Shown here piece by piece: positions 4,839-42,630 of a stretch of 64,000 nt of DNA. Positions within the stretch are counted from its first letter, which is position 1, and each line of letters begins with the position of its first letter. Source of the DNA: Caulobacter sp. 602-1 (GTDB lineage Bacteria > Pseudomonadota > Alphaproteobacteria > Caulobacterales > Caulobacteraceae); NCBI RefSeq assembly GCF_003931565.1, contig NZ_RRYI01000003.1, positions 62,001 through 126,000 on the forward strand, given 5' to 3'. The translations under genes and the position numbers were made by a program. The notes below the pieces were generated by a model. The model was not told the DNA's origin and did not search any database. It saw only the letters and a list, made by a program, of their open reading frames with translations.

Positions 4839-4928
<90 letters not shown>

Positions 4929-5072: not shown

Positions 5073-5075
5073 AAA

Positions 5076-6713: not shown

Positions 6714-8048
6714 TCAGCTTGCGGCGAGCGCGTGGCGGGTTTTGGGATAATAGTCGCGCTCACGGATCTTGAGGTTCAGGCCAAGGGTCTCGACGAGCTG
6801 CTCGGTCTCCCGGCCGATCAGATCATCAAAGTCCTTCAACCGCTGGCGAGGCAAATCCAGACTCGCCCGTTCGAGGGCTGTGATCATCGGGACGGCGACG
6901 CGGTCGATAAAGCGAAGGGCCGCCCCGCGCGAAAAACCGAACGTGGCGAAGAAAGCCAAAAGGTCGTTGGCGGTGATCTTGTCCGGATGATCGGCCCCGC
7001 CGATGTTGAAGGCCAGCTGATCGTTGAAATCCAGATTCATCCGGCTGGGCAGCAGATCATAGAGCGGCGCCAGCGACGGCGCGCCGCCATGCCGATAGAT
7101 CAGGCCGTGATTCTTGGCGTGATTGTCTGTGTTGCCGATCAGAAGATTGAAGATCGTCGCCGAAAGAAAGGCCTCGCGCGCCAACGCCGGAGCGGTCGTC
7201 TGCTTGAGCAGTGTGGCGATGGCGGCGCTGTCGAACACGCGCCCGGCCCCGCCATTGCGTTGATACTTCAGTGTCGCCGGCAGGCCGAGCGCCTGGGCGA
7301 AGTCTTCCTGGTGTAGCCGATAGACGACCCCATCGCGCACGACACGGTCGAACCGCTCGATGAGCAAGACCTCGACGCCATCGATGACCAAGGCTTTGGG
7401 AACCGAAACCTCCAAACCTACCGACTGGGCGAGATGCGCGGCGGCCTCCTCCAACCGCGCGTCGCGACCCAGACGGGTTTCGGGAACCTTGAGGATGTGG
7501 GTGGTCGGAACTTTCTTGCCCGCCTTGGGCGTTGCGAAGCCCTGCGCCGTGTGGGTCAGAGCAATCTTCCGCTGCACCCCGGCCACTGGCGAAGGGTCGC
7601 GCACGGCGTCGGGCAGCCGCTGCTTCTCTGCCAGACTATGGACAATTGCCGCGACCGCTTCCGGCGATAGCAATTCATAGTCTTCGGCCAAAACCCCGGG
7701 AACCTTGATAGGGTCTGCGCCAACGGGCAGGCAGGAGATCGCGCCCGAACAATCGGCGCCCAGGTGGCTCAGCAATCCGACAATGTCGTCGCGCGCCAGA
7801 CCTTCGCGGTCCATCACGCGCTGCATCTGATCGTTCTCAGGCAAAAGGTTGTCGAAGAAGGCGCGGGTGGCGACATCGCCGAAGTCCACCTGCTCGACCG
7901 GCATCGACAGCGACAGCGGCGGCCCGCCGGCCGCGACGTAGCGATCGTCATAGGCAAAGCTGATGGCGTGGTTCGCGTCGGAGGCGAGGTAGCCGGCCGG
8001 CAGTGCAAAGCCGTCCATGCGGACGACCAGGCCCATAGGATCGCTCAT
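6714..8048 (-). CDS. hipA: HipA-family serine/threonine kinase toxin
   Basis: Toxin kinase of 444 residues. In E. coli, HipA phosphorylates glutamyl-tRNA synthetase and induces persistence. The N-terminal HipA_N domain (about 1-115) has the FFDNLLPE motif, and the kinase core has the regulatory Ser region PSPVAGVQRKIAL (152-164). The catalytic loop is NTDNHAKN (307-313, with D308), and the metal-binding Asp is D331 in LYDLLPS. All key residues are present, so it should be active. It overlaps the upstream HTH gene by 4 bp (ATGA at 8045-8048), so antitoxin and toxin are co-translated in the normal hipBA order. The operators at 8677-8812 presumably control both. Confidence 0.94.
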   Translation of the reverse strand: MSDPMGLVVRMDGFALPAGYLASDANHAISFAYDDRYVAAGGPPLSLSMPVEQVDFGDVATRAFFDNLLPENDQMQRVMDREGLARDDIVGLLSHLGADCSGAISCLPVGADPIKVPGVLAEDYELLSPEAVAAIVHSLAEKQRLPDAVRDPSPVAGVQRKIALTHTAQGFATPKAGKKVPTTHILKVPETRLGRDARLEEAAAHLAQSVGLEVSVPKALVIDGVEVLLIERFDRVVRDGVVYRLHQEDFAQALGLPATLKYQRNGGAGRVFDSAAIATLLKQTTAPALAREAFLSATIFNLLIGNTDNHAKNHGLIYRHGGAPSLAPLYDLLPSRMNLDFNDQLAFNIGGADHPDKITANDLLAFFATFGFSRGAALRFIDRVAVPMITALERASLDLPRQRLKDFDDLIGRETEQLVETLGLNLKIRERDYYPKTRHALAAS

Positions 8049-8668
8049 CGCCGCGCCGCCAGCAGATCAACGCCGGCCGCCGAGCACACCGCCATCACTT
8101 TTCCCAGTTCCAGCGTGGGCTTGCCGTTTTCCAGTTCGGACAAGAAGCGTCGTCCGACGCCGGCGGCGTCGGCGAAGGCGGCTTGGGTCAGACCCATGGC
8201 CTCGCGCGCCTGACGGAGCAGCTTGCCCAAGGCGGCCGGAGAATTGACCGGCATCGGCCCCGACGGCGACTCACTGGTCGGTTGCGTCGACAATCGCCCG
8301 AGGCGGGCAGCCGGCGCCACAGGCTCAAGAGCCGTATCCACTGAGCGTCCGACTGCGGTAAGGCCAAGACTGCGCTCCACGGCGTTGTCTGCAGGGAGGC
8401 CGGCGACGCCTCCGGCCATGCGCGCCTCCAGCGCTTGGGCATTCGGGTCTCGTCCCCCGACCATGAGGGCATCGGCCTGAGAACGGCTAGCCTCGCTCAT
8501 GGACTTGCGGAGGTCTCTACCCGAGACGCCAGCCAAACCTCCGATGTCCAGAGCTTTGCTTGCCAGCGAGCCACCCATCGCCAATTTCATGGCCTGCGCG
8601 GCGGACGTCACGTCGCCGCCCATTGCCTTGGGGTTGAAACTTTTCTCGGATTTATCGCTGCCAGCCAT
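8045..8668 (-). CDS. hipB: HipB-type antitoxin with long N-terminal extension
   Basis: Antitoxin and autorepressor partner of HipA. The Cro/C1-type helix-turn-helix is confined to the last 65 residues (about 145-200: LGKLLRQAREAMGLTQAAFA, then AGVGRRFLSELENGKPT). E. coli HipB has 88 residues; this one has 207. The extra 140 residues are rich in Ala, Gly and Ser with no recognisable fold (repeated AMGG/LAMGGSL/LMVGGRD patterns) and may be disordered or mediate oligomerisation. The start at 8668 is supported by the first operator, which covers the ribosome-binding region just upstream. The HTH is C-terminal rather than N-terminal, an uncommon layout. Confidence 0.88.
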   Translation of the reverse strand: MAGSDKSEKSFNPKAMGGDVTSAAQAMKLAMGGSLASKALDIGGLAGVSGRDLRKSMSEASRSQADALMVGGRDPNAQALEARMAGGVAGLPADNAVERSLGLTAVGRSVDTALEPVAPAARLGRLSTQPTSESPSGPMPVNSPAALGKLLRQAREAMGLTQAAFADAAGVGRRFLSELENGKPTLELGKVMAVCSAAGVDLLAARR

Positions 8669-20745: not shown

Positions 20746-20780
20746 AGACTCGGATCGTCCCTAGGTACTTGTGCCCAAAG
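20746..20780 (-). repeat. 35-bp promoter-region element, copy 2
   Basis: AGACTCGGATCGTCCCTAGG followed by TACTTGTGCCCAAAG; 32 of 35 identical to 19035-19069. It sits between the divergent small-protein gene (start 20684, minus) and the large hybrid kinase (plus). It may regulate one or both. Confidence 0.65.
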
Positions 20781-20947
20781 GCGGTTGCGGCCGGGTCGCG
20801 ACGTCCCGCCGTGAGGCTCACGCAACCCGTGGTCCACAAACTGGTCTTGCCCAGGCTCGCGGCAAGCCCGACGATGCTGCAAACAGGCGACGCGCGATGC
20901 CCCTCCGGGCGCCGCCGGTGGTTGGCAACAGGAAGAAAAGACAAGCG

Positions 20948-23900
20948 ATGGCCAGACCAGCGCGGACCGGCCGAAAGGGCGGCAATCTGGGCGACAAGCG
21001 CGGAGCGTCCAGCGCCGACGGCCTGAAAGCCGCTGTCGCCACCGGAGTTCCTGTCGTCGCAGTTGGCGCCTCGGCCGGTGGTCTGGAGCCGATTACCCGC
21101 CTGCTGGCCGCGATTCCGGCCAAGAACGGCCTGGCCTTTGTCGTCATCCAGCACCTGGACCCGACGAGCAAAAGTCTGTTGCCTGAGTTGCTAGGCCGGC
21201 AGACCGCGATGACGGTGCAAGCTGCCACGGACGGGATCAAGGTGATGCCCGACCAGGTCTATGTCATCCCCCCGGGCGCCCATCTGACGATCGGGTCTGG
21301 CAGGCTGCACCTGTCGACCAGGCCAACCGCCGCCGGGGCGGGCCTGCCCATCAACGTGTTCCTGCAGTCACTCGCGACCCAGTGCGGTGAGCGCGGCATC
21401 GGTGTCATCCTGTCAGGAAGCGGGTCCGACGGCGCCGAGGGGCTCAAGGCCTTGAAGCAGGCCGGGGGGCTGGCGCTGGTGCAGGACCCAGAGGAAGCCC
21501 AGCAGGACAGCATGCCACGCCAGGCGATGATGATCGCCAACCCTGACCATGTCCTGCGCGTGGAGGACATGCCTGAGATCCTAGCCCGCTATGTCGCCCA
21601 CAACTATGTCAAGGCGCGCCCGTCGGCATCCACGGAAGAGGCGCGGGAAATCGCCGACCCGGCGGCGCTGGCCGCGATCATTGAACGGCTCAAGTCCGCG
21701 ACGGGGCAGGATTTCGCACGCTATAAGACCGGCACGCTGCAGCGTCGTGTCGAACGACGCATGGCTCTGCATGGCGTTCATGCCTGGGCAGACTATCTCG
21801 CCTTGCTCCGCACGAGCCCGGTCGAGACCAGCGCCCTGGCCAAGGATCTGCTGATCAACGTCACCCGGTTCTTCCGAGACGCCGGCGCCTTCAGCGCGAT
21901 GGCCGAACGCATTGCGGACCTCTTACACGGGCATACGTCCGACCAGCCCGCGCGAATCTGGGTCGCCGGCTGCAGCACCGGCGAAGAGGCCTATTCGCTG
22001 GGCATCCTGTTCCGCGAGCAGATCGCCGCGACGCGAGCGGGCCTGGGTCTGCAGATCTTCGCGACGGACATTGATGAGGACGCTCTTCAGATCGGGCGGG
22101 CGGGACTGTATCCGGGCAGCATCGCCTCCGACGTTTCGCCCAAGCGGCTCAAGCAGTTCTTTGTCCAGGAGGATGGACATTTCAAGGTCACCAAGGAACT
22201 GCGCGAGGCCGTGATCTTCAGCCGGCATGATGTGCTGAGCGATTCCCCCTTCTCACGGCTGGATCTGGTCTCCTGCCGCAACCTTCTCATCTATCTGACG
22301 CCGGAAGCGCAGGCTCACGTGTTGGCCTTGGCTCATTTTGCGCTTCGGGAGGGCGGTCTGCTGCTGCTCGGCTCGGCGGAATCGGTGGCCGCGGCCCCGG
22401 GCCTGTTCGAGCCGGTGGACGAAAAACTGCGGATCTACCGGCGTAGCGGCCGGGGGCGGCCGGCGCGGGCGCGCTTCTCGATACTGGAGCCAGGACAGGC
22501 ATCGGGAGCCTGGAATCGGTCGCTCCGTCAGTCCATCCAAAGATCGCCGTCGCTGCCGGATCTGGTCCAGCGCACGATGCTTGAGACCTACGCTCCGGCC
22601 GCCGTGGTGACCAATCGCCAGCTCGTCCCGCTGTATTTTTTTGGCGGAGCCGACCGGTATCTGAAAATTGTCTCCGGCGAACCCGGCCAGGACCTGCTGA
22701 CGATCGCCCGGGAGGGGCTGCGTCCAAAACTTCGCGATGCGATCGCTCGCGCCTTCCGCGCCAAGCGTCGCGTCTCGGAACACGGCGTCAGCTTCGAGCG
22801 GGAGGGCAAAACCGTCACAGTGACGATCGAGGCGCAGCGGATCGCCGATGAGCAGGAAGCGCTCGTTCTGGTCAGCTTCATCGACGAGCCGGGTAGCCCC
22901 GAGGCGGCGCGGGCGCCCGGCGGCAAAGGCGGCGATCGCTCGGAGTTGATCCTGCTGCGTCAGCAGCTGGCCGAAACGCGCAAGGAACTCAACCGGACCA
23001 TCCATGAGCTTCGGGAGACGAACGAAGAGCTCAAGACGAAAAACGAAGAAGCGATGTCGCTGAATGAGGAGTTCCTCTCCACCAACGAGGAGCTTGAATC
23101 CTCGAAGGAGGAGCTGCAGTCGCTGAACGAGGAACTGACCACCGTCAACAACCAGCTGCGTCAGACGTTGCAGCAACAGGAGCAGACATCCACGGATCTC
23201 GCCAATCTATTGGATAGCTCGGCCGTGGCCACGATCATGCTGGACGCCCAGCTCCGCATCAAGGTCTTCAACCCGCGCATGAAGGCGCTGTTTTCTCTGA
23301 TCGACGCTGATATTGGTCGGCCGCTCGCTGATCTGGTTCCAAAATTCGCCGATCCGCAACTGCCCGCCGACGCCCAAGCGGCGCGCTCGACCGGAACGCC
23401 AAGCGATCGTGAGATCCGCGCGGAATCAGGCGCTTGGTACGTTCGCTCGGTTTTGCCCTACCGGACCGAGGCCGGGGCCATCGAGGGAGCCGTGGTCACC
23501 TTCGCCGATGTTTCTCAGTTGAAGCAGGCGGAACTCGACGCCGCCGCCGCGCGCCAATATGCCGAGACCGTCATCAACGCCGTGCATGACCCCCTGGTGG
23601 TGCTCAATCCCAACGCCACGATCGTATCGGCCAATGCGGCGTTCTGCGCGGCGTTTGATCTGGCGCCAGACACCATCGCGGGTCGGGCGCTGAGCGATCT
23701 TGAGCGCCCGTTTCTGAGCCACGAACGATTGATCGCGCTGGTGACGGGGATCAATGCGCAGGCGCCTGGGATCATCGACCCCGTCGATCTCGAAGGCGAG
23801 CAACCGGGCGGCGGACGCCGCATATGGCGGGCCAGGGCGCGCGGCTTTCAGGCGCCATCCACAGAGCACCCGCTTGTGCTGTTGGCGCTGAACGACGTCA

Positions 23901-26080
23901 CCGACGAGCGCCACATCGTCCGGCAACAACTGCAGCTCATGATCGACGCCATGCCAGGAGCTTTCCTGGCGGCCGATAAACAGGGTCTGATCCAGTTCGC
24001 CAGCGGTCAGGTTGAACCCCTTTTCGGATACAGGGCCGATGAGCTGATTGGCCAGAGGATCGACGTTCTGGTGCCCGCCGACATGCAGGAAAGACATGCG
24101 GCGCTCCATGCCGGCTATTTCGAGAACCCCACCCGCAGACCGATGGGAGCGGGCCTCAAGATCAACGGGGTCACCAAGGACGGTCGCAAAATCCCGCTGG
24201 ATATCGGCCTCAGTCCGATGGCCATCGCCGACGGTTTCCTCGTGATGGTCGCCGTTCACGATCTGCAGGCGGTCCGAGAGGGCGAGGCGCGACTGCGTGA
24301 AGCCCGAGAGGCGGCCGACCGCGCCAATCGAACGAAATCAAGATTCCTGGCGGCCGCGAGCCATGATCTTCGACAACCGTTGCAGACCATCGGCTTCCTG
24401 ATCGGTGTTCTGGAAAGGCGGGTGACCGAACCTGAAACACGCGGGACCCTGGCCAAGCTGGACGACGCCATCGTCCACATGGGTGAACTGCTCGACGGCC
24501 TGCTCGACATCAACCAGATCGAAGGCGGCGCTATCAAGCCGCAGATCGCCGAGATGGCTGTCGCCCCTCTGCTGGCGCGCGCTGTCGATGAATTCTCGCC
24601 GCTCGCGGCCGCGAAGGGCCTTCAGCTCCACGCGGTCCCCTCGTCAGCGATGATCCTGAGCGACCAGCGGCTGCTGGCGCGCATGGTCGGCAATCTGCTC
24701 TCCAACGCGATCAAATACACAGACCATGGCAAGATTCTGATCGGTTGCCGGCGACGGGGAGGCGCCCTGCAGATTGAGGTCTGGGACACCGGCATCGGCA
24801 TTCCGCCGGAAAGCAGCGAAGCGATCTTCGAGGAGTTTCATCGCGTCGAGCCCACAGATTCCGGCAGGTTCGGCATGGGCCTGGGGCTCTACATCGTGCA
24901 GCGTTTCGCGCACCTGCTCGGGCATAGGGTCGAGGTCCGCTCGGTTCCCGGCAAGGGATCAGTGTTCGCCCTGGTGATTTCGGGCGCCCTGTTTGCCACC
25001 TCCGGCCAGGGACGGGTTGGCAAGCGCGACCCGCGCTCATCGCCGCCGGTTGTCCTCGTGATGGAGGATGACGCCACGCAGCGTGAAACCCTGCGTACGC
25101 TTCTGGAGCTCGAGGGCTATTGCGTGATCGCGGCGCGCACCGGCGCCGAGGCGCTGGCGTATTTCAATTCCCCGGCGGCCATCCATCCAACCCTTATTGT
25201 CACCGACTATAACCTGCCTGGGGCCATGACCGGGCTGGACGTCATTCGGCAAGCGCGAGCGCGGACGAAAGCGACGCTTCCCGCGCTGATTATCAGCGGC
25301 GACAAATTGGAGGCGAGTCGGGCGGCCACCGAGGCCGTCGGCGTGAAATTCATCGCCAAGCCCATGAGGGCCTCTGATCTGTTGGCGGCGCTGGACCCAC
25401 TTGCCGACATCGTGAGCCCCGGTTGGCGCGCGAGCCAGAAGCCGGCCACCCGGGTGACCAAGCCATTGGCGTCCGCGCCCGATGCCAACATCGCGGTGAT
25501 TGATGATGAGCCCAGCATTCGCGACAGCATTCGCGAGATGCTTGAGGCCGAAGGCTACAGGGTTGCGGCCTATCCCTCGGGTCAGGCGTTTCTGTCCGAT
25601 GCCGACCACCAGCGATTCCGCTGCCTGATCGTCGACATGACCTTGCCCGGAATGGACGGTCTCGAGTTGCAGAGTCGACTGAAGTCCGAAGGCTCTGGCA
25701 CGGCGATAGTCTTCGTTACCGGGAGCGCCAGCTTGCCCCTGGCGGTAAAGGCGATCCGCGAGGGCGCGGTCGACTTCCTGCAAAAACCGGTGAGCAACGC
25801 GGCGCTGCGAGACAGCGTCGCTCGCGTACTGGCGGACAATCAGGAAAGCGCCGACCGAGGCGCGGAGCGTGGCGAGATCGCCGCCCGCCTCGCCACACTG
25901 ACCCAGCGCGAGCGCCAAGTGATGGAGCGTATTGTCGAAGGCAAGTTAAACAAGAATATCGCGATCGAACTGGGCATCAGCCAGCGCACAACCGAACATC
26001 ACCGTCAGAGCGTCATGCGAAAGATCGGCGCCAGTTCGTTGGCCATGCTGATAAGAATGGTGGGCCTCAATCGTCAGTGA
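20948..26080 (+). CDS. Giant hybrid: CheB-CheR-PAS-histidine kinase-REC-REC-LuxR
   Basis: A 1710-residue soluble signalling protein. In order: CheB methylesterase (about 35-215; Ser in GASAGG, His in IQHLDP, Asp in LSGSGSDG); CheR methyltransferase (about 235-500; VAGCSTGEEAYSLG SAM site); Glu/Asn-rich coiled coil (about 670-745); three PAS-like domains (about 750-1110); HisKA with ASHDLRQPLQT; HATPase with NLLSNAIKYT and WDTGIGIP; receiver 1 (Asp in IVTDYNLPG); receiver 2 (Asp in IVDMTLPGMDG); and a FixJ/NarL-type LuxR HTH (LTQREREQ-like LTQRERQVME). Kinase, phosphoacceptors and DNA-binding output are in one chain. ATG 20948 is chosen; ATG 20897 is possible. No transmembrane segment. Confidence 0.92.
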   Translation: MARPARTGRKGGNLGDKRGASSADGLKAAVATGVPVVAVGASAGGLEPITRLLAAIPAKNGLAFVVIQHLDPTSKSLLPELLGRQTAMTVQAATDGIKVMPDQVYVIPPGAHLTIGSGRLHLSTRPTAAGAGLPINVFLQSLATQCGERGIGVILSGSGSDGAEGLKALKQAGGLALVQDPEEAQQDSMPRQAMMIANPDHVLRVEDMPEILARYVAHNYVKARPSASTEEAREIADPAALAAIIERLKSATGQDFARYKTGTLQRRVERRMALHGVHAWADYLALLRTSPVETSALAKDLLINVTRFFRDAGAFSAMAERIADLLHGHTSDQPARIWVAGCSTGEEAYSLGILFREQIAATRAGLGLQIFATDIDEDALQIGRAGLYPGSIASDVSPKRLKQFFVQEDGHFKVTKELREAVIFSRHDVLSDSPFSRLDLVSCRNLLIYLTPEAQAHVLALAHFALREGGLLLLGSAESVAAAPGLFEPVDEKLRIYRRSGRGRPARARFSILEPGQASGAWNRSLRQSIQRSPSLPDLVQRTMLETYAPAAVVTNRQLVPLYFFGGADRYLKIVSGEPGQDLLTIAREGLRPKLRDAIARAFRAKRRVSEHGVSFEREGKTVTVTIEAQRIADEQEALVLVSFIDEPGSPEAARAPGGKGGDRSELILLRQQLAETRKELNRTIHELRETNEELKTKNEEAMSLNEEFLSTNEELESSKEELQSLNEELTTVNNQLRQTLQQQEQTSTDLANLLDSSAVATIMLDAQLRIKVFNPRMKALFSLIDADIGRPLADLVPKFADPQLPADAQAARSTGTPSDREIRAESGAWYVRSVLPYRTEAGAIEGAVVTFADVSQLKQAELDAAAARQYAETVINAVHDPLVVLNPNATIVSANAAFCAAFDLAPDTIAGRALSDLERPFLSHERLIALVTGINAQAPGIIDPVDLEGEQPGGGRRIWRARARGFQAPSTEHPLVLLALNDVTDERHIVRQQLQLMIDAMPGAFLAADKQGLIQFASGQVEPLFGYRADELIGQRIDVLVPADMQERHAALHAGYFENPTRRPMGAGLKINGVTKDGRKIPLDIGLSPMAIADGFLVMVAVHDLQAVREGEARLREAREAADRANRTKSRFLAAASHDLRQPLQTIGFLIGVLERRVTEPETRGTLAKLDDAIVHMGELLDGLLDINQIEGGAIKPQIAEMAVAPLLARAVDEFSPLAAAKGLQLHAVPSSAMILSDQRLLARMVGNLLSNAIKYTDHGKILIGCRRRGGALQIEVWDTGIGIPPESSEAIFEEFHRVEPTDSGRFGMGLGLYIVQRFAHLLGHRVEVRSVPGKGSVFALVISGALFATSGQGRVGKRDPRSSPPVVLVMEDDATQRETLRTLLELEGYCVIAARTGAEALAYFNSPAAIHPTLIVTDYNLPGAMTGLDVIRQARARTKATLPALIISGDKLEASRAATEAVGVKFIAKPMRASDLLAALDPLADIVSPGWRASQKPATRVTKPLASAPDANIAVIDDEPSIRDSIREMLEAEGYRVAAYPSGQAFLSDADHQRFRCLIVDMTLPGMDGLELQSRLKSEGSGTAIVFVTGSASLPLAVKAIREGAVDFLQKPVSNAALRDSVARVLADNQESADRGAERGEIAARLATLTQRERQVMERIVEGKLNKNIAIELGISQRTTEHHRQSVMRKIGASSLAMLIRMVGLNRQ

Positions 26081-30994: not shown

Positions 30995-31021
30995 AGGGCG
31001 CGCTTATACGTCGTGCCGACG
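30995..31021 (-). other. oriT: Putative origin of transfer (oriT) with nic region
   Basis: In the traC-traA intergenic region the minus strand reads CGTCGGCACGACG-TATAAGCGCGCCCT. The right part resembles the RSF1010/Ti-type nic core (TAAGTGCGCCCT; TATAATTGCGCCCT), and a 5-bp inverted repeat CGTCG-TGC-CGACG at 31009-31021 lies directly beside it, as at known oriTs. Position, hairpin and core agree. The exact nick is predicted within TAAGCG/CGCCCT. Confidence 0.82.
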
Positions 31022-31051
31022 TGCGCTGAGGATAGTAAGTGGTCTGTCGCC

Positions 31052-33922
31052 ATGGCGATCTACCACTTCTCCGTCAAAGTCATCAGTCGCGCCACCGGGG
31101 CCAGCGCCGTGGCCTCTGCCGCCTATCGCTCCGCCTCGCGGCTGCACGACGAGCGGCTGGATCGCGACCACGACTTCACCAACAAGAGCGGCGTCGTCCA
31201 TTCCGAGGTGATGCTGCCGGACGGCGCGCCCGAGCATCTCTCCGATCGCACGACGCTGTGGAACGCGGTCGAGGCCGGCGAGAAGCGCAAGGACGCCCAG
31301 CTCTCCCGCGAGGTTGAGTTCGCCATCCCGCGCGAAATGGACCAGGCGCAGGGGATCGAGCTAGCCCGCGACTTCGTCCGGCGCGAGATGGTGACACGCG
31401 GCATGGTCGCCGACCTCAATGTGCATTGGGATATCGGCGCCGACGGGCTGGCCAAGCCCCACGCCCATGTCATGCTGACCATGCGTGAGATTGGGCGCGA
31501 AGTCGGCGAGGACGGCTTTGGCGCCAAGGTCCGCGACTGGAACCGCACCGAGCTGGTCGAGCACTGGCGCGAGGCCTGGGCCGATCACGTCAATGCGCGG
31601 TTGGCGCAGCTGGATATCGACGCCCGGATCGATCACCGCAGCCTGCAGGACCAGGGCATTGACCTGGAGCCGCAGAACAAGATCGGCCCGGCCGCGGGGC
31701 GTCGGGCCGATGAAGGCCTGGAGGCCGATCGGCTCGACGAACACCACGAGATCGCGCGCGCCAATGGCGAGCGGATCATCGCCGATCCGCGCATTGCTCT
31801 GGACGCCATCACCAAGTCGCAGGCGACCTTCAACCGTCGCGATCTGGCGATGTTTCTTCACCGCCATTCGGACGGCAAGGCGCAGTTCGACCGCGCCATG
31901 GGCGCGGTGCAGGCCTCGCCCGAACTCATCGCCCTGGGCCAGGACGGACGCGGCCAGGAGCGCTTCACCAGCCGCGAGATGATCGCGGTCGAGGACCGCC
32001 TGCATCGCGCCTCCGCTGTGATGGCCGAGCGCCGCGCGCACCGGGTCAGCGAGCTGGATCAGCGCAGTGCTTTGGCGCGGGCCGAGCAACGCGGTCTCAT
32101 CCTCTCTGGCGAGCAGAAGGCGGCGTTCGAGCATGTCACCGCGACCCGCGATCTGGGCGTGGTGGTCGGCTATGCCGGCACCGGCAAGTCGGCGCTGCTG
32201 GGCGTGGCGCGCGAGGCGTGGGAAGCCTCGGGTTATCAGGTGCGAGGGCTAGCTCTGTCGGGCGTCGCCGCCGAGAACCTGGAGGGCGGATCGGGCATCG
32301 CCTCACGCACGATCGCCAGCCTGGAGCATCAGTGGGCGCAGGGGCGCGAACTGCTGGACGCCCGCGACGTGCTGGTGATCGACGAGGCCGGGATGATCGG
32401 CTCGCGCCAGATGGAACGATTGCTGTCGGCCGCTGAGAAGGCCGGGGCCAAGGCTGTGCTGGTCGGCGATCCCGAGCAGCTTCAGGCCATCGAGGCTGGT
32501 GCAGCGTTCCGGTCAATCGCCGAGCGCCATTCGCACGTCGAGATCACCCAGGTTCGCCGGCAGCATGAAGAGTGGCAGCGCGATGCCACCCGGCATCTGG
32601 CCAACGGCCGCACGGGCGAGGCGCTGGCGGCTTACGAGGCGCGCGGCATGCTCCACGCCGCCGAGACCCGCGACCAGGCGCGCGAGGATCTGGTCGAGCG
32701 TTGGAATCGCGACCGCGTGGCCGAGCCGGGCAAGAGCCGGATCATCCTCACCCACACCAATGACGAGGTGCGCGATCTCAATCTGACGGCGCGCGAGCGG
32801 CTGCGTCAGGCAGGCACGTTGGGCGCGGACGTGAAGGTCGGGGCCGAGCGCGGCGAGCGGCAGTTCGCGACTGGCGATCGGCTGATGTTCCTGAAGAACG
32901 ATCGCGGGCTCGGCGTGAAGAACGGCATGTTGGGCGAGATCGAGCAGGTCTCGCGCACTCACATGACTGTCCGTCTCGACGCGGGGCGCTCGGTCGCCTT
33001 CGACCTGAAGGACTATGCCCAGGTCGATCACGGCTATGCGGCCACCATCCATAAGAGCCAGGGCGTCACTGTCGATCGGACCCATGTGCTGGCGACGCCG
33101 GGGATGGATCGCCACGGCGCCTATGTCGCCCTGTCGCGACATCGCGACAGCGTTCAGCTCCATTACGGCCGTGACGAGTTCGAGGATCTCGGCAAGTTGA
33201 CCCGCGTGCTGTCGCGCGAGCGGGCCAAGGACATGGCCAGCGACTTTGCCGAACGACGCGACATTCATGTGCCGGCGTCGATGCGGCCCAAGGAGCCGCC
33301 ATCGCGCGAGCGCGGGATGTTCGCCGGGTTCCGGCCGGCCAGCCCCGCGCATCAGCCGGCGGCGCCGACGCGCGATCACGACCAGCTTGCGCAGCGCCAG
33401 GCGATGGAGCGCCACGCCCGCGCCGCGGCCGACGTCATGCGCATGAACGACCGCGGCTTGCCGGTGCTCGCCCATCAGCGGAAGGCGCTAGAGGAGGCGC
33501 GCGAGGCTATGGGGAAGATCGGCCCGCACGCGGCCAAGGACTTGGAGCGGGCCTATGTCCGCGATCCGGCCCTGGCTGGCGAAACCGCTTCGGGTCGCAC
33601 TCAGCGGGCAATCCGCGTCCTTCAGCTTGAGGCCGAGGTCCGGGCCGATCCGCGCCTGCGCGCCGATCGCTTCGTTGAGCGCTGGCAGGGCCTGGAGCGT
33701 CAACGTTCGGCCCTGCATCGCGCGGGCGACATGAGCGGCGCAAGCCAGGTCAAGGACCGCATGGGCGCCATGGCCAAGAGCTTGGAGCGGGACCCGCAGG
33801 TGGAGTCGCTGCTGCGCGCTCGCCGACCGGAACTTGGGCTGCCGAATGAGATGGGTCGCAGCGTTGGCCAGAGCCTTTCTGACCATCTCGGTATCGGTCG
33901 TGGCCGGGGGCTTGGCTTGTAG
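31052..33922 (+). CDS. traA: TraA-type relaxase/helicase (MOBQ)
   Basis: A 956-residue relaxase that would nick oriT and unwind the transferred strand. The N-terminal MobA/MobL domain (about 1-230) has a candidate catalytic Tyr25 in SAAYRSASRL and the metal-binding PHAHVML at 136-142. The RecD/TraI-like helicase follows, with Walker A GYAGTGKSALLG (about 380), Walker B VLVIDEAGM, and late motifs HGYAATIHKSQG and YVALSRHRD. The C-terminal about 200 residues are Arg-rich and helical. It is a little shorter than Ti TraA (about 1100) but all motifs are present. ATG 31052 directly follows the oriT region. Confidence 0.94.
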   Translation: MAIYHFSVKVISRATGASAVASAAYRSASRLHDERLDRDHDFTNKSGVVHSEVMLPDGAPEHLSDRTTLWNAVEAGEKRKDAQLSREVEFAIPREMDQAQGIELARDFVRREMVTRGMVADLNVHWDIGADGLAKPHAHVMLTMREIGREVGEDGFGAKVRDWNRTELVEHWREAWADHVNARLAQLDIDARIDHRSLQDQGIDLEPQNKIGPAAGRRADEGLEADRLDEHHEIARANGERIIADPRIALDAITKSQATFNRRDLAMFLHRHSDGKAQFDRAMGAVQASPELIALGQDGRGQERFTSREMIAVEDRLHRASAVMAERRAHRVSELDQRSALARAEQRGLILSGEQKAAFEHVTATRDLGVVVGYAGTGKSALLGVAREAWEASGYQVRGLALSGVAAENLEGGSGIASRTIASLEHQWAQGRELLDARDVLVIDEAGMIGSRQMERLLSAAEKAGAKAVLVGDPEQLQAIEAGAAFRSIAERHSHVEITQVRRQHEEWQRDATRHLANGRTGEALAAYEARGMLHAAETRDQAREDLVERWNRDRVAEPGKSRIILTHTNDEVRDLNLTARERLRQAGTLGADVKVGAERGERQFATGDRLMFLKNDRGLGVKNGMLGEIEQVSRTHMTVRLDAGRSVAFDLKDYAQVDHGYAATIHKSQGVTVDRTHVLATPGMDRHGAYVALSRHRDSVQLHYGRDEFEDLGKLTRVLSRERAKDMASDFAERRDIHVPASMRPKEPPSRERGMFAGFRPASPAHQPAAPTRDHDQLAQRQAMERHARAAADVMRMNDRGLPVLAHQRKALEEAREAMGKIGPHAAKDLERAYVRDPALAGETASGRTQRAIRVLQLEAEVRADPRLRADRFVERWQGLERQRSALHRAGDMSGASQVKDRMGAMAKSLERDPQVESLLRARRPELGLPNEMGRSVGQSLSDHLGIGRGRGLGL

Positions 33923-35370: not shown

Positions 35371-35828
35371 GGGACGTCGCTTGAGGGCGCGCCAATGCGG
35401 CTTTCACCGGAACTGGAAATTTTGACTCATCGCTGAACTTGGGAGGGACCGCATTCTGGCCGGACTGATACGGCGGCGCAGACAGCGGCCACAGCCTTGG
35501 AGGCGCGTCGTTCGCTCTCCCGGATGAACGCACCCATTTAGAAATCGTCCGACGCTCTCAGCCTGGGCGTATCGCCGCTGCGCGCCAAGACTTGTATCCA
35601 ATCCATCACTGGTTAAGCTTCAGCTGCAAGTCACCCCAAGGGCGATTGATCAGGACCACCCGTCTTACGTTTGAATTTTTCGAGAGCGCTGATGGCCGGT
35701 CCACCGGAATATGACGACTGGTTGGCCCTGGCGGGCACCCGCGCGCTCTTCCACCTGGCAAATTCTGGCCGTCAGGGTGATCCGCCGCTCGTGGACGGCA
35801 CCCGCGATGTCGCAAGGAAAAAGCGTAA
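35371..35828. other. Non-coding interval before the glycan cluster
   Basis: No convincing gene on either strand. Base composition drops toward the right. A short A/G-rich AAGGAAAAAG at 35815-35825 is the probable ribosome-binding site of the next gene. The rest shows no stem-loop or repeat that I can support; the cluster promoter should lie here. Confidence 0.5.
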
Positions 35829-36701
35829 ATGAACGAAGGGAGACTGAACTCAGCGGTCGAGGCCGATCCATTGCCCCCTACCGAACGAGCACGCTCTGAC
35901 TTCGTGCGCGACATGGTGCAGCGGCGAGAAAACCCTCAGCAGGGTTTAGCCTCTTGGCCCGGCCCGACGCCACGGCGTCTCGTTCAGTTTTGGGACGACT
36001 TGCAGAATCTACCCGAAGATGTCCGGGCCTGCATGGATTCTTGGAAGCAACTGGAGCGCCAGGGCTTCGAATTGGAAGTGTTCGACAAGCGCTCCGCGAG
36101 TACATTTATCCGCACCCACTTAGGGGCTCGCTATGATGATGCGTTCAACCGGTGTTACCATCCATCAATGATGTCGGATTACTTCCGATATGCATACGTG
36201 TTCGTAGAGGGCGGCTTCTACATCGATGCCGACGACGTCTATCACGGCAGGTCAATTGACCATCTATTCGAGGATGGGCGACTAAAACTTCAGCCGTTCT
36301 GCTATGATATTCCAACGGGACAAATGGTGGCTCCGTCGATATTTACAGAACCTGGATCCAATCAGCCGGGATGGATTTTCTACTTCAACACGACCCCTTT
36401 GATCGCATCGCGCCATCACCCGATAGTTGAGAAAGCTTTGTTGAACGCCACCGCATCTCTGGAGGCGGATAGCACTGATGGTCTACCCGAGGTCCAAGCC
36501 TCGACTGGGCCGGGAAATCTCACCCGGTCGGTGTTCGAGACTATTAGCCAAGGATGTTCGCCTGAAGCGCTAATGGTCGCGCATGATTGGGAGCTGATAT
36601 CCACCAGCCAGTGGCCGCTCAGCTACCGCAATGACTCGCGGAACTGGAGATTGTCCAATCAGCGATTGTACCGCGCGTCCTCAGTGTCGGAGGCGGAATG
36701 A
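35829..36701 (+). CDS. DXD glycosyltransferase (sugar-binding DXD/OCH1 type)
   Basis: A 290-residue cytoplasmic glycosyltransferase of the Gly_transf_sug type (GT32-like). PTPRRLVQFWDDLQNLPEDV opens the nucleotide-sugar fold, DYFRYAYVFVEGGFYIDADD (about 117-136) has the DXD metal site (D133-D135/D136), and an HHPIVEKALLNA segment follows. It has no signal or membrane segment. It is the first gene of three with ATGA overlaps (36698-36701). Base composition is markedly more AT-rich than the flanking genes, a sign of recent transfer. Donor and acceptor are unknown. Confidence 0.88.
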   Translation: MNEGRLNSAVEADPLPPTERARSDFVRDMVQRRENPQQGLASWPGPTPRRLVQFWDDLQNLPEDVRACMDSWKQLERQGFELEVFDKRSASTFIRTHLGARYDDAFNRCYHPSMMSDYFRYAYVFVEGGFYIDADDVYHGRSIDHLFEDGRLKLQPFCYDIPTGQMVAPSIFTEPGSNQPGWIFYFNTTPLIASRHHPIVEKALLNATASLEADSTDGLPEVQASTGPGNLTRSVFETISQGCSPEALMVAHDWELISTSQWPLSYRNDSRNWRLSNQRLYRASSVSEAE

Positions 36702-38926
36702 ATCTGGCCGGAAAACCGCCGTCGCTCCTTCGCTTGGCTTTTCGCCTAGGGTACGGCCTTCGCAGGATCCTTCCGACGCAGACGTCAAAATCATTTGGGC
36801 CGCGAATGGGCTCAGACGGGCAAACCATCGAGAAGATCTATGTGATCAATCTCGATCGCCAGCCAAATCGATGGTCCCGCGTAAAGAGCGAGCTTAGGCG
36901 TGTAAGGGACAGGTATGGCAAAGAACTTCTCAGGCTGGCGGAGCGTCATACCGCTGTTGATGCAAGAAAGTTTCTCCAGGATCCGCCCAGAGACGCGGAT
37001 GTAGATCCATTTTACACTTTGGCCGATCAACTTTTTGTCGAGCCACAGCCTCGAACGCTTCCGACACGTTTCGAGCTTGAAGCGCCGATTCGAATGAGCA
37101 GGGCTGAAGTTGCTGTCGCCAAATCACACATAGAGGTTTGGAGGCACATTGCGCGGGGGGCGCAATCACATGCTCTCATTCTTGAAGACGATGTGTGGTT
37201 CCATCCAGGTTTTGCCCGTCAACTTGACCAAGCGTGGAGCTTCATCTCAAACGCAGGCGGTGAACATGGAGATGTAGATGTCCTCTACGTTTCATACATG
37301 GAATCGAAAAATGGAGCTCCAAAATCATTTACGTCGAGCTATGTATTTAGACCAGAGCGGGGGCTGTGGAATCTGTCTGGGTACATCCTCTCCCGACAAG
37401 GTGCAGAGAAGCTTCTTCGTTTACTGCCCTGTCGCGGCCCGGTAGACCTCTGGATAAACCACCAGTTCAACGCACTGAACGTCGTCGCAACGACGCGTGC
37501 TTTGATCGGCCAGAGAAGAGACACCGCCTCAACCAACTCTTACTCGATTCTTCCGACGCTCTCGAAGATCGGCGCGATAGACAGCGAGGGCGCTGCCCTA
37601 TTCAACGCTCGCCCGCCTCAACTGCCTGTTTTTGCGTTTGGCCCTGCCAACTCGGGCCAGTCATCCCTTGCAATGGCGCTGTCCATGCTCGGTTACCGAT
37701 GCTGCAGCGACCTTGTTGGGCTGCCGATCCAAGAGTTGAAGCGGCTTCGTGAGGGAAGTGCTGATCGCGTATTTGGGGCCTACGTTAACGTGGGTTGTCT
37801 TGAGTCAATGATTGAAGACCTTTGGCGAAGGTACCCGCAGGCCAAGTTCATCGTGACGCGGCCTTCAGCCAATTTCTCTAGCCAGGCCGTCGAGGCTATT
37901 CTAGCCCGCATCGGGGGCGCGGACATCATCGAACTCGATCCTGGCGCCGTCGATGCTTGGCGGATTCTCTGCGAGCACCTCAGATGTGCGCCACCATTGT
38001 GCCCATTCCCGAGCATGGCCGACTTGGGGCAGCGGCATGTTATCGAAGCATGCGAACAACCCGCCCCTGCCCGCAGGCGCGCTACACCCAAGCGGGATCG
38101 GTCCCCTTGGGTCGTTGATCCGGATCATGGCGCTTGGTTGGGCATCCGGGTTGCGTCCAGCCCTGCTGAGGGCGAGGAAAATTGGGTCCAAGTTGAAGGC
38201 GATGCTGCCCGGCTCAGCCCAGTGGATTGGTCTGCACGGACGGACACTTTTACTGGCAACTTGGCATTGTTTCGCCCTTCGAATGTTGAGTACGACGATG
38301 TTGGGGGCGCGACGATATACGTTCGGCAGGAAAACCTGGGGGCCCGACAGTTCAGTGCAGGCGCGTTGAGCAGTCACGCGGAGCACTGCTTTGGAAGGTT
38401 CGAGGCTACGTTCCAAGCGTCGAACGCGCCAGGTGTGGTCACCGGATTCTTTCTACACCGTAATTCACCACATCAAGAAATTGACATCGAGATTGCTGGC
38501 AATCTACCAAATCGATTGCTTGTCAATGTCTTCTACAACCCAGGTGGCCCAGGCGCTAAATTTGACTACGGCTACCGGGGCTCCCCAAGTTACATTGAGT
38601 TGGGCTTCGATGCTTCGAAGGGGCTGCATCGTTACGCTATCGAATGGACTCCGAGCGAGATCCGATGGTTTGTGGATGATCTACTTGTCCATCGGCGCGT
38701 GCTTTGGGACCCAACCCCAATTCCACACCTGCCCATGAAGCTGCATTTCAACACTTGGCCTTCCCGCGCCTCTCAGCTTGCGGGGCGTCTCAACACCCGT
38801 CGGCTTCCAGCAATGGCCCAGGTTCAATCAATACGCGCACGCGCGCATGGTCCTTCAGTATTCAGGCAAAATTCAAAAGTGCTCCGGATGTCTGGCGAGA
38901 CCGTCATCAACGGGGTGCCAAGATGA
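36698..38926 (+). CDS. GT25 glycosyltransferase - sulfotransferase-like - GH16 fusion
   Basis: A 742-residue three-domain protein. Residues about 44-285: family 25 (LPS-type) glycosyltransferase with EKIYVINLDRQPNRW, SHIEVWRHI, ALILEDDVWF (LEDD 162-165) and SGYILSRQGAEKLL. Residues about 309-450: a sulfotransferase-like P-loop domain, with the phosphosulfate-loop-like FGPANSGQSSLA (313-325) and WRRYPQAKFIVTRPS. Residues about 515-715: a GH16 beta-jelly-roll with the catalytic signature EIDIE (E594, D596, E598), then HRYAIEWTPSEIRWFVDD. There is no signal peptide, although GH16 enzymes are normally secreted. It is linked by ATGA overlaps to both neighbours. Domain calls are firm for GT25 and GH16, moderate for the middle domain. 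Confidence 0.87.
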   Translation: MNLAGKPPSLLRLAFRLGYGLRRILPTQTSKSFGPRMGSDGQTIEKIYVINLDRQPNRWSRVKSELRRVRDRYGKELLRLAERHTAVDARKFLQDPPRDADVDPFYTLADQLFVEPQPRTLPTRFELEAPIRMSRAEVAVAKSHIEVWRHIARGAQSHALILEDDVWFHPGFARQLDQAWSFISNAGGEHGDVDVLYVSYMESKNGAPKSFTSSYVFRPERGLWNLSGYILSRQGAEKLLRLLPCRGPVDLWINHQFNALNVVATTRALIGQRRDTASTNSYSILPTLSKIGAIDSEGAALFNARPPQLPVFAFGPANSGQSSLAMALSMLGYRCCSDLVGLPIQELKRLREGSADRVFGAYVNVGCLESMIEDLWRRYPQAKFIVTRPSANFSSQAVEAILARIGGADIIELDPGAVDAWRILCEHLRCAPPLCPFPSMADLGQRHVIEACEQPAPARRRATPKRDRSPWVVDPDHGAWLGIRVASSPAEGEENWVQVEGDAARLSPVDWSARTDTFTGNLALFRPSNVEYDDVGGATIYVRQENLGARQFSAGALSSHAEHCFGRFEATFQASNAPGVVTGFFLHRNSPHQEIDIEIAGNLPNRLLVNVFYNPGGPGAKFDYGYRGSPSYIELGFDASKGLHRYAIEWTPSEIRWFVDDLLVHRRVLWDPTPIPHLPMKLHFNTWPSRASQLAGRLNTRRLPAMAQVQSIRARAHGPSVFRQNSKVLRMSGETVINGVPR

Positions 38927-40527
38927 AAATACTCTCCTACAACCCAGGCCATGACGGCGCATTTTCATATATTGAAGGCGGCCGCTTGGTATTCTCCATC
39001 GAGGCGGAAAAGAGTTCAAAATTTCGACATTCGTCACTGTCGATTCCCGATGCTTTCGACGCACTTGCCGAACTTGACGACGTTCCCGACGTGCTGTGCA
39101 AGGGGGGGTGGTGGCCCGGAGACGCGCCGCGCGAAGGAGAGGCTGCAGCTGATTACCGAGGCACTGATCGCCACCAGGTAATTATCAGAAAAAAGAGTCT
39201 ACTGGGAAAGACTATCGACATATTTTCTTCATCCCACGAACGCTCGCATCTTCTGTGCGCGTTCGGAATGTCTAATCTGCCGAAGGGCACTCCATGCTAC
39301 GCGTTGCTCTGGGAAGGCGTTCTCGGAGCATTCTACGAGATCGACGCGGCACTGAATATCACAAAGATAGCTGACGTGATGCCAGAGCCAGGCCACCGCT
39401 ACGCGATGCTTTATGCACTAGCAGATCCGACTTTCGATAATAATACCGCAGAATTCTCCCGATTATCCGACGCCGGAAAGCTGATGGCGCTAGCTTCTTT
39501 CTCAAAAAGAAGTCAACCGACGAGCGAGGAAGAGGCGATTATGTCTTTTCTGCTCCAGGATTGCGAACATCTTAGGCCTCGGGATTGCGAATCTCTGAAG
39601 GATTTTCGCCATTACAATATTGGTCTGGAAGATCAAGAATTCCGCAATTTTGCGGGAATCTTCAGTGACCGCCTATTCGATCGCTTTTATAGATTCGCTG
39701 AAGAAAATTTGGCCCGTGGAATGCCGCTTCTAATAGCGGGTGGATGTGGACTTAATTGTGACTGGAACACTAAGTGGAAGGACTCCGGATTATTTAGCGA
39801 CGTATTCGTGCCTCCTGTTGCTAACGACTCGGGTTCAGCGATTGGCACTGCTATTGACGCACAGCTATATTTTACAGGCGACCCGAAGATTTCGTGGGAT
39901 GTCTACTCAGGACTGAATTTCGTTTCTGACGAAATTGTCGATGAAACCCTGTTTGATAAATGGGAGCCGAGCATTGCGAACGTTGCCGCAATGTTGGCCA
40001 ACGATCTTGTTTTGGGATGGGCCAGCGGCCGGTATGAAATCGGGCCGCGCGCGCTCGGTAATCGCTCCATATTGGCAGCCCCCTTTAGATCTACCACCAG
40101 AGAGCGGCTGAATGTCATCAAACAGCGGGAGCAGTTTCGTCCAATCGCGCCGGTCTGCTTGGAGGACGACGCCGAGAAATGGTTTGGGTGCAATCATCCT
40201 AGCCCATTTATGCTTTACACTTATCGAGCATCTACAACTGATCTTGCAGCAGTGACTCATGTAAACAGAACTGCACGCATTCAGACCGTGTCTGCGCTTA
40301 CCAATCATTCAATGTTTGATTTGCTAACAGAGTTCAAAGTTCTAACTGGCTATGGCGTTCTATGTAACACCTCTCTGAATTTTAATGGGAAGGGTTTTAT
40401 CAATACGATGTCTGATCTATCGGCCTATACGTTGCAACATCAGCTTGACGGCTTTGTGGTGGACGGGCAGATCTACATGCGGAAATCATCGGTTGGGTAC
40501 CAGGAATACCTTCGAGACCGGAGCTGA
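38923..40527 (+). CDS. NodU/CmcH-type O-carbamoyltransferase
   Basis: A 534-residue protein that would transfer a carbamoyl group from carbamoyl phosphate to a sugar hydroxyl. The N-terminal Kae1-like part begins KILSYNPGHDGAFSYIEGG, keeping the HD, and LLWEGVLGAFYEID; GGCGLNCDWN lies in the middle. The C-terminal carbamoyltransferase domain has GWASGRYEIGPRALGNRSIL and KQREQFRPIAPVCL, both family hallmarks, and CNTSLNFNGKG near the end. The start at ATG 38923 overlaps the previous stop. NodU decorates rhizobial Nod factors; here the substrate is presumably the glycan made by the preceding genes. Confidence 0.92.
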   Translation: MKILSYNPGHDGAFSYIEGGRLVFSIEAEKSSKFRHSSLSIPDAFDALAELDDVPDVLCKGGWWPGDAPREGEAAADYRGTDRHQVIIRKKSLLGKTIDIFSSSHERSHLLCAFGMSNLPKGTPCYALLWEGVLGAFYEIDAALNITKIADVMPEPGHRYAMLYALADPTFDNNTAEFSRLSDAGKLMALASFSKRSQPTSEEEAIMSFLLQDCEHLRPRDCESLKDFRHYNIGLEDQEFRNFAGIFSDRLFDRFYRFAEENLARGMPLLIAGGCGLNCDWNTKWKDSGLFSDVFVPPVANDSGSAIGTAIDAQLYFTGDPKISWDVYSGLNFVSDEIVDETLFDKWEPSIANVAAMLANDLVLGWASGRYEIGPRALGNRSILAAPFRSTTRERLNVIKQREQFRPIAPVCLEDDAEKWFGCNHPSPFMLYTYRASTTDLAAVTHVNRTARIQTVSALTNHSMFDLLTEFKVLTGYGVLCNTSLNFNGKGFINTMSDLSAYTLQHQLDGFVVDGQIYMRKSSVGYQEYLRDRS

Positions 40528-40806
40528 CTGCCCCCATTGTCTACCCGTCTCAATAGCCTGCCAGAGGCGGCATCGGGTCGCTCAGGTAACTGATGCTTGC
40601 TGGCGCGGATGTCCGCTCCTGAAGCCAGTCCAGCTTCCGCCAGTGGTGACAAACCGACCGGTGACAGATGTCCCATCCCCTCGGCTAAGATCGATCGAGT
40701 GCCCCGATGGAAGGCCTACTTCAAGACCCGGCAGGGAGTACTCCTCGTGGTCGGCGGTTTCCATAGCGGTTAATGACAAGCTGGGCGTTTATAGGGGCTC
40801 TCGGAA

Positions 40807-41580
40807 ATGGAAGACGTATTCGTCGCAACAAGCGCCAAAGCCCTAGGCGCTGCAGTCCAGGAGGCCGTCGAACACGTCTACCAGCTTGAGGCGCAGCTCG
40901 ATCACGCACACCACCTCGCACGGCCTTATGAGGGAATGGGCGCGGTCGCCAATGTTCCAGGCTTGAACGGTGCTCGCCAGAATATCCAAGCGCTGCCTGG
41001 TCAGATCGACGCTGCGAAACAACGCGTCACCGACCTCATCAAAAGGCTTTCCGAGCGAATGATCGAGGATGATCGCGCCGCGCGAGAAGGGCGTGATTTC
41101 TGGTTTCGGCGGTTCATGCTGAGCTTGCAGATCGGAAATGGCGCGGCATTTCTGGCGACAGTCGCGGGGCTGCTGCAAGCCGATAAAGATGTCTTGTCGG
41201 TCATGGCGGTTCTGGTTTGGCCACCCGCCACCTATTTCGGCTTGGGCGTTGGCGCCGCAGGCCTCCTTCCGCTCCTAATGTTCGCCCGTCAGTCTGTTTC
41301 ACGCCCGACTTGGGTCCGGATTGCGCACGCGGCGGTATTGCTTTTCGTCACTTTCTCCATGGGTCTCTTCGCACTCGGAGCCGGCTCGGTCGTGGTGGAG
41401 ATTCGACAGCTGGGGCAGCCTGCCGTTGCGGCCGCGCAGAAGGCTGCAGCAAACAAGGCGGCAGCGCAGGAACCAGTTGCTGCCCCTCGGGCGCCAACGA
41501 GCGGCCAAACTAGTTCGCCTACTCACGCTGCCCCGGACCCACAAGGGTCGCTGCCTGAAGCTCCAAAGTCGAAGCCCTAG
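40807..41580 (+). CDS. Membrane protein with N-terminal coiled region
   Basis: A 257-residue protein I do not recognise. The first 100 residues are helical and soluble (LEAQLDHAHHLARPYEGMG, AKQRVTDLIKRLSERMIEDD). Three or four membrane segments follow at about 103-123, 130-160 (two short segments possible) and 170-197. An Ala/Pro/Gln-rich tail ends the protein. The next gene starts 2 bp after the stop, so the two form one unit. The non-coding gap 40528-40806 precedes it. Position next to attR suggests an accessory, perhaps defence, function, but nothing in the sequence shows this. Confidence 0.65.
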   Translation: MEDVFVATSAKALGAAVQEAVEHVYQLEAQLDHAHHLARPYEGMGAVANVPGLNGARQNIQALPGQIDAAKQRVTDLIKRLSERMIEDDRAAREGRDFWFRRFMLSLQIGNGAAFLATVAGLLQADKDVLSVMAVLVWPPATYFGLGVGAAGLLPLLMFARQSVSRPTWVRIAHAAVLLFVTFSMGLFALGAGSVVVEIRQLGQPAVAAAQKAAANKAAAQEPVAAPRAPTSGQTSSPTHAAPDPQGSLPEAPKSKP

Positions 41581-41582
41581 TC

Positions 41583-42341
41583 ATGGCGGCCAATGATCCG
41601 TACACGGCACTCGAAGCTGCCCTGGGCGATATCGCCGCGATTGGGAACAGCTTGGGCGACGCCTCGACGAATATCCGTGTCACCGGTGACGACCCGAAGT
41701 TCCTGTCACTTGCTTTGTTCTGGCGAGCCTGCAACCACTTCCAAGCGTTCACGATGCTCTGGAAAGCTAAGCTCTATATCGACGCGGAAATCATTGTCCG
41801 CAGCAGCATCGAGACGGCGATTTGCCTAGCCAATCTCAACGCTCGGCGAATGGACTTTATGAACGACCTAATTGCGGACCTATCCCACACCATGGGCGGG
41901 CAAATGAAAATGCTTCGGCGGGGTCAGTTCGATTTCACCGACGAGGTCGCGGCGCAGTGGGCTGAAGAATTGGCTTCGAAGGGCGCGCGGATGGACCTTG
42001 AGACTCTAGCCAAGGGCGGCCACGTCGATAACCTGTACGCGTTTCACCGGCTGCTCTCGGCGTTCGCAGTCCACATCACCGGTATGTCAGTCGGGCGTCA
42101 CTGCCCTTTCGGCGATGATGACGACGGCTGGAGCAAGACATTGGAAGCAACGAAGGAAGCTGACCGGCGTCGCTCGGTCCTCTGGATGCTCACGGCGATG
42201 ACCGCGACCCTGTTGGCCCACGCCGAGATCATTGACGACAAAGTCCACATGGACCGGATGACTGCGTTGCTGGAGAAGCTGAAGCCGGTGATTGAAGCCT
42301 TCGCTGACGGACAGTCCCCCAAAGCCGGAGGTGGCCTCTGA
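41583..42341 (+). CDS. DUF5677-like helical protein
   Basis: A 252-residue, mostly helical protein. The stretch LFWRACNHFQAFTMLWKAKL, then IDAEIIVRSSIETAICLANL (about 38-82), matches the pattern of DUF5677-type proteins, which are often found in accessory regions. Further helices carry HRLLSAFAVHITGM and a W-M-L-T-A-M segment. Its coupling to the membrane protein (2-bp gap) suggests a two-component membrane/cytosol unit. No catalytic motif is evident. Confidence 0.65.
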   Translation: MAANDPYTALEAALGDIAAIGNSLGDASTNIRVTGDDPKFLSLALFWRACNHFQAFTMLWKAKLYIDAEIIVRSSIETAICLANLNARRMDFMNDLIADLSHTMGGQMKMLRRGQFDFTDEVAAQWAEELASKGARMDLETLAKGGHVDNLYAFHRLLSAFAVHITGMSVGRHCPFGDDDDGWSKTLEATKEADRRRSVLWMLTAMTATLLAHAEIIDDKVHMDRMTALLEKLKPVIEAFADGQSPKAGGGL

Positions 42342-42615: not shown

Positions 42616-42630
42616 CCACCCTCTCCGCCA
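42616..42630 (+). repeat. attR core, copy of tRNA-Ser 3' end
   Basis: CCACCCTCTCCGCCA, identical to 4914-4928, with partial similarity (GAAT) just upstream. It is not part of any tRNA structure here, as expected for the displaced 3' end left at the far side of an integrated element. Confidence 0.82.

Follow-up and report, generated by a model that had tools for sequence, protein, structure and literature searches.

A putative mobile glycan-modification cassette centered on a GT25–GH16 fusion protein in Caulobacter sp. 602-1

We analyzed a 64,000-nucleotide stretch of Caulobacter sp. 602-1 DNA (contig NZ_RRYI01000003.1, positions 62,001–126,000; hereafter, “the window”), in which three overlapping genes encode a glycosyltransferase (gene 1), a protein joining a GT25 domain, a P-loop domain, and a GH16 domain (gene 2), and a carbamoyltransferase (gene 3). 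The features of these genes, in window coordinates, are as follows.

35829–36701, + strand: gene 1, DXD glycosyltransferase (Gly_transf_sug), 290 aa; Pfam PF04488, 1.5e-7; 4-base overlap with gene 2
36698–38926, + strand: gene 2, GT25 + sulfotransferase-fold P-loop domain + GH16; ATG start, 742 aa, one open frame
36719–36778, + strand: basic amphipathic N-terminal stretch of gene 2, approximately residues 8–27, possible membrane anchor; hydrophobic moment scan, model helix 9–22
36830–37447, + strand: GT25 domain of gene 2, residues 45–250, LEDD at 162–165; Pfam 3.7e-12
37613–38002, + strand: truncated, probably inactive sulfotransferase-fold domain of gene 2, residues 306–435
38183–38848, + strand: GH16 domain of gene 2, residues 496–717, EIDIE at 594–598
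38923–40527, + strand: gene 3, NodU/CmcH-type carbamoyltransferase, 534 aa; PF16861 1.1e-53, PF02543 6.2e-22; 4-base overlap with the end of gene 2

Gene 2 is a genuine three-domain protein. Pfam models placed Glyco_transf_25 (PF01755) at residues 45–250 (E-value 3.7e-12, 47 bits against a curated cut-off of 24), Sulfotransfer_4 at residues 311–388 (1.8e-5, 25.1 bits against 22.8), and Glyco_hydro_16 (PF00722), with its beta-jelly-roll fold, at residues 544–694 (4.9e-27, above its curated cut-off). A first-pass annotation, made from the letters alone, had proposed this layout in 742 residues and suggested profile searches for the three families; these searches bear the layout out, since each family was found above its cut-off, and the LEDD (162–165), FGPANSGQSSLA loop, and EIDIE (594–598) motifs lie where that annotation had put them. 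For the middle domain, Pfam and fold comparison both indicate a sulfotransferase fold with a P-loop. The predicted structure of the full chain reached a mean predicted local distance difference test score of 65.2 and a predicted template modeling score of 0.43, and the match list of a structural search with the whole model was taken up by GH16; compared with solved structures, the GT25 part returned weak sequence matches (procollagen galactosyltransferase, ~1e-4). A scan of genome_contigs identified 21 loci with relatives of gene 2 (41–72% identity), of which 19 match at least 713 query residues and the other two end at contig edges. Because of these near-full-length relatives and the identical architecture across an alignment of 27 copies (the window’s included; 770 columns, relatives 38–71% identical, two near-identical pairs), a joining of separate genes through a frame or sequencing error was ruled out.

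Across this alignment, the GT25 acids E163, D164, and D165 and the GH16 acids E594, D596, and E598 (E-x-D-x-E) are present in 27/27 copies, in agreement with the intact EIDIE signature first described for GH16. That these residues do not vary across bacterial classes suggests selection on both activities. Conservation falls from GH16 (mean pairwise identity 0.65) through GT25 (0.60) and the middle domain (0.50) to the linker (0.32) and the tail (0.15). Within the middle domain, the Sulfotransfer_4 match spans only profile positions 2–97 of 215, i.e., under half, and the P-loop residues are conserved in most copies (S319 in 23/27, G320 in 22/27, S/T322 in 25/27, S323 in 24/27), with the loop lost or altered in those from Aliarcobacter, Colwellia, Sphingobium, and Rhizobium leguminosarum, where the GT25 and GH16 acids stay. 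Residues 387–396 presumably mark the place where sulfotransferases carry the arginine and serine that hold the 3'-phosphate of 3'-phosphoadenosine-5'-phosphosulfate; this second cofactor segment is barely conserved (R388 in 1/27, S394 in 5/27), and columns 388–396 vary freely. The sulfation originally proposed for gene 2 is therefore not supported: the P-loop breaks down in the copies that diverge most, and the second segment lacks conservation. On the state of this second segment, an active sulfotransferase was rejected for most copies. Overall, selection looks strong at two of the three sites, but not at the sulfotransferase-fold site.

Gene 2 may act on the cytoplasmic face of the inner membrane. 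In a hydropathy scan, used here in place of a dedicated predictor, no 19-residue window suggestive of a signal peptide or transmembrane stretch exceeded 1.65 in any of the 27 copies, which agrees with the absence of a signal peptide noted before. An N-terminal stretch with a hydrophobic moment of at least 0.49 was found in 26/27 copies, the exception (L002) having been entered without its N-terminal part, and the predicted structure of the window’s protein shows a helix at residues 9–22.

Gene 1 lies directly upstream of gene 2 in all 29 loci with upstream DNA, the window’s copy included; its DXD acids D133 and D135 are invariant in 20/20 aligned copies, and in one locus (L045) the gene is split into two frames. 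Gene 3 was found in 23/29 loci, 22 of them by tblastn in addition to the window, and two loci (L038, L040) were too short to judge. Its placement varies: it comes first in L046 and L047, is reversed and cut by the locus end in L002, and lies in two pieces in L043 and L026. No other gene family is shared by more than 4 of 30 loci. The genes at 35829–40527 thus appear to travel as a unit, a mobile cassette built around genes 1 and 2. The first-pass annotation had thus captured the architecture of one protein and missed the cassette, with its second glycosyltransferase and its carbamoyltransferase. A promoter and terminator scan of 35371–40806 returned no more sites than shuffled sequences. Between the cassette and the candidate right repeat described below, a low-GC stretch (40807–42341) holds two genes that may be further cargo, one of 257 aa without a Pfam match above cut-off and one of 252 aa with DUF5677. 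The Sinorhizobium sojae plasmid pSJ05684a (L067:3297–13178) has a decayed cassette, in which a short GH16 fragment and two gene 3 pieces are interspersed with insertion sequences.

With 53.8% GC, compared with 64.7% for 4929–35828 and 67.6% to the right of the repeat, the cassette is a low-GC insert in a putative element integrated at a tRNA-Ser gene, of which the left end is supported and the right end is a candidate.

4839–4928, + strand: tRNA-Ser (CGA), insertion site of the element; ARAGORN
5007–6386, + strand: tyrosine integrase beside the tRNA-Ser; Pfam
31013–33922, + strand: MobA/TraA-type relaxase-helicase; Pfam MobA_MobL 5.9e-70
42616–42630, + strand: 15-base direct repeat of the tRNA-Ser 3' end, candidate right end; exact match to 4914–4928

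At the left end, similarity to the window stops with the tRNA-Ser in three of four genomes from the same genus, and the fourth has a related integrase there. For the right end, a 15-base pattern overlapping the repeat, with one mismatch, had 0 matches in 100 shuffles. Relatives of the right-flank regulator in the same genus are not near this tRNA on contigs with both (G027, G047), and in two relatives the sequence that follows the tRNA maps to other places in the window’s own genome, leaving this candidate end without synteny confirmation. The window also has a TraD-type gene and HipBA-like and RelE/HTH pairs. A HipA-like protein and its HTH partner lie near the integrase (6714–8668), and 20771–26080 encodes a 1769-aa hybrid signaling protein with CheB, CheR, PAS, histidine kinase, response regulator, and LuxR-type domains.

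Relatives of the cassette are carried by plasmids and genomes of alpha-, beta-, and gammaproteobacteria and Campylobacterota. A plasmid search returned 155 records with any gene 2 match; in nine, the match extends over 80% or more of the protein: Citrobacter freundii (IncC, blaLMB-1), Rhizorhabdus wittichii pSWIT02, Klebsiella michiganensis, four Aliarcobacter, Sphingobium herbicidovorans, and R. leguminosarum. A further 31 records, among the 40 of 155 matches listed, hold the GH16 end only. The Citrobacter copy lies on a conjugative plasmid of a clinical isolate, where it is annotated merely as a family 16 glycosylhydrolase; 3,901 bases of it (genes 2 and 3) had no blastn match in 20,395 Escherichia coli records. 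Among 199 genomes of relatives (own genome included), one other holds a full-length gene 2 (G165, from the same taxonomic order, 55% identity), and 398 genomes from the phylum (own included) likewise yielded one other copy. The closest copies (71–72%) include an alphaproteobacterial metagenome-assembled genome (MAG) and the gammaproteobacterium Rheinheimera, followed by the Citrobacter plasmid at 70%. In the gene 2 tree, copies from distant classes stand side by side, but 7 of 24 forks are unresolved, a number of long branches come together, and the window’s copy belongs to no starred set. One putatively viral IMG/VR contig (L048) carries the cassette, with a full copy of gene 2. In 50,697 phage records, genes 1 and 2 had no match, and the cassette was rejected as a phage gene on this basis; gene 3 has distant relatives in 140 of these records, all below 60% identity and mostly from cyanophages.

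Near-identical cassettes also occur under differing MAG phylum labels (L024, L033, L037, L038, L045): the Methylomirabilota and Burkholderiaceae copies are nearly identical, and the Fusobacteriaceae-labeled L038 scores equal to an Aliarcobacter plasmid copy. Some of these labels are probably binning errors. Separately, a gene 3 relative (48.6% identity) on a Salmonella plasmid (L068:7995–13532) lies near thymidylate synthase, inosine/xanthosine triphosphatase, amidohydrolase, and MFS transporter genes, in what looks like a nucleoside-type product cluster.

Genes flanking the cassette were compared with defense-system models, using up to three genes of at least 120 aa on each side of loci L021–L048 (131 proteins from 26 of 28 loci, called as longest frames). 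These neighbors match 185 PADLOC models at 1e-10 (25 of the 185 among the matches listed), compared with nine models (best 2.9e-37), of types that housekeeping genes may match as well, for a control of 83 proteins from 14 stretches elsewhere on the contigs of 14 of these loci. This contrast is strong but rough, because the sets differ in size and loci and PADLOC models are redundant. For 40 of the 131 neighbors, single PADLOC scans gave GajB in L021, GajA and GajB in L036, Avs4 in L037, and ThsA in L039, along with weaker or less specific matches (a helicase in L023, RtcR in L027, RmrA in L033, and a TIR-like protein in L034 at 2.5e-11). Annotation and Pfam add DUF262/GmrSD in L042 and L047, Abi_2 in L043, and Shedu in L045, such that a clear defense-type neighbor (Gabija, Avs4, Thoeris, Shedu, GmrSD, or Abi) occurs in 8 of 28 relative loci; a related locus, L066, has Shedu and Lit. 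The scan of the whole set also listed strong matches to Orf5, PDC-S06, and a GajA (1.5e-143), which fall among the other 91 of the 131 neighbors. Near the Sphingobium copy (L046:6950–9373), a multiubiquitin-domain gene with a ThiF-family gene and unknown genes is a possible bacterial ubiquitin-like conjugation operon.

Taken together, we favor, with a probability of about 0.4, a self-contained and horizontally mobile glycan-modification cassette whose purpose would be to change the cell envelope and thereby protect both carrier and element. Under this hypothesis, the cassette proteins would work at the cytoplasmic face of the inner membrane, with gene 2 held there by its basic amphipathic helix. 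Gene 1 and then the GT25 domain of gene 2 would add sugars to a lipid-linked or membrane-bound acceptor; the GH16 domain, with its lichenase-like retaining fold, would trim the resulting beta-glycan to length or transfer it onto a final acceptor; and the carbamoyltransferase, where present, would cap a sugar hydroxyl. The middle domain, no longer a sulfotransferase, could serve as a scaffold or nucleotide sensor, and the altered envelope may shield carrier and element alike against phages or competing elements. Among the core genes of Pseudomonas lipopolysaccharide (LPS), glycosyltransferases occur together with the carbamoyltransferase WapO (PMC8005017), and to that extent the chemistry of the cassette fits envelope glycans. 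In a bolder version, the two glycosyltransferase domains, a cytoplasmic GH16 hydrolase or transglycosylase, and the carbamoyl cap would remodel a membrane-linked glycan so as to keep phages or plasmids from entering; the cassette would then be a new kind of bacterial immune system, spread on plasmids and integrated elements across Gram-negative phyla. This version is conceivable but doubtful.

Several observations weigh against a protective envelope function. Every catalytic step is inferred, and an envelope product is a guess because the cassette itself has no flippase, polymerase, or exporter. Sphingomonads are not known to make LPS, and since carriers include sphingomonads, a single LPS acceptor is unlikely. 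Gene 3 is absent from four loci (L036, L037, L044, L045) that have 7 kb or more of flanking DNA on either side. None of the three cassette proteins matched any PADLOC-DB 2.0.0 model at 0.1, and 31 of the 40 singly scanned neighbors had no PADLOC match at 1e-10. In solved-structure searches with six large neighbors, five had no match at 1e-4 and the sixth was an arsenite oxidase adjoining the cassette in L022; metabolic genes lie near the cassette in L046 and L047. The neighbor contrast does not separate defense genes from other mobile-element cargo, and the defense link would thus be one of guilt by association, which cargo of mobile elements in general could mimic.

The cassette could instead encode a defense effector that works inside the cell, where its targets for glycosylation, deglycosylation, or carbamoylation would be phage nucleic acid, nucleotides, or proteins and not the envelope. 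The missing export signal and the defense-type neighbors would suit such a role, two of these neighbors being of GmrSD type, whose known relatives act on modified phage DNA, as would a weak match of the GT25 part to PHROG phage glucosyltransferases (8.9e-10). However, GH16 folds of the gene 2 kind cut polymeric beta-glycans and are not known to act on nucleoside sugars, genes 1 and 2 are unmatched in the phage records, and Pfam revealed no nucleic-acid-binding domain, and we consider this effector role unlikely. An unlikely reading, too, is that of ordinary metabolic cargo making a small carbamoylated glycoside or a storage or stress glycan with no phage link. NodU/CmcH-type enzymes tailor Nod factors and antibiotics, and the arsenite oxidase, the metabolic genes beside two copies, and the Salmonella cluster are all consistent with such cargo; yet no exporter, regulator, or scaffold-making gene recurs beside the cassette, and defense-type neighbors are far above the control. 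Least credible is the initial proposal of a single cytoplasmic enzyme that would extend, sulfate, and trim one glycan, which is very improbable given the unconserved second cofactor segment, the partial sulfotransferase profile match, and the loss of the P-loop in copies that keep their GT25 and GH16 acids.

It is unusual for a single protein that is not exported to combine a glycan builder with a glycan cutter. Because gene 2 is strictly paired with a second glycosyltransferase, two or three genes would be enough to test the pathway. If the cassette acts in defense, glycan remodeling would join the chemistry of bacterial immunity; if not, it would still be an unstudied mobile glycan pathway. 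Literature searches, from which subscription journals are mostly absent, listed no title or abstract on a GT25–sulfotransferase–GH16 protein or cassette, consistent with the first-pass view that the architecture is undescribed. The parts come from known families, and it is their combination and mobile spread that appear undescribed.

Among these families, gene 2 shares the whole domain and the LEDD acids with the LgtB-type GT25 (PF01755) glycosyltransferases of LPS, but fuses them to a P-loop domain and GH16 at a locus that, in the window, is not an LPS locus. Compared with the GH16 lichenases BglS and ExoK, it scores below the NCBIfam cut-offs (89.7 of 300 and 56.4 of 350 bits, respectively) and differs in its fused glycosyltransferase and lack of an export signal. 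The middle domain has the P-loop and core fold in common with the bacterial sulfotransferases SgdX2 and Cpz8 and with Sulfotransfer_4, but comprises only ~130 residues with an unconserved second cofactor segment. Gene 3, with both Pfam carbamoyltransferase domains, resembles in kind the carbamoyltransferases NodU, CmcH, TobZ, and WapO (of Pseudomonas LPS); in sequence, it is ~32% identical to annotated rhizobial NodU and reaches 258.4 bits against the NCBIfam equivalog cut-off of 1000 for NodU. Finally, phage gtr serotype-conversion clusters are mobile surface-modification genes. Unlike them, the cassette has no flippase or membrane transferase, adds a GH16 domain and a carbamoyltransferase, and has a surface effect that is only putative, but it shares with them the placement on mobile DNA of glycosyltransferases that may change the cell surface.

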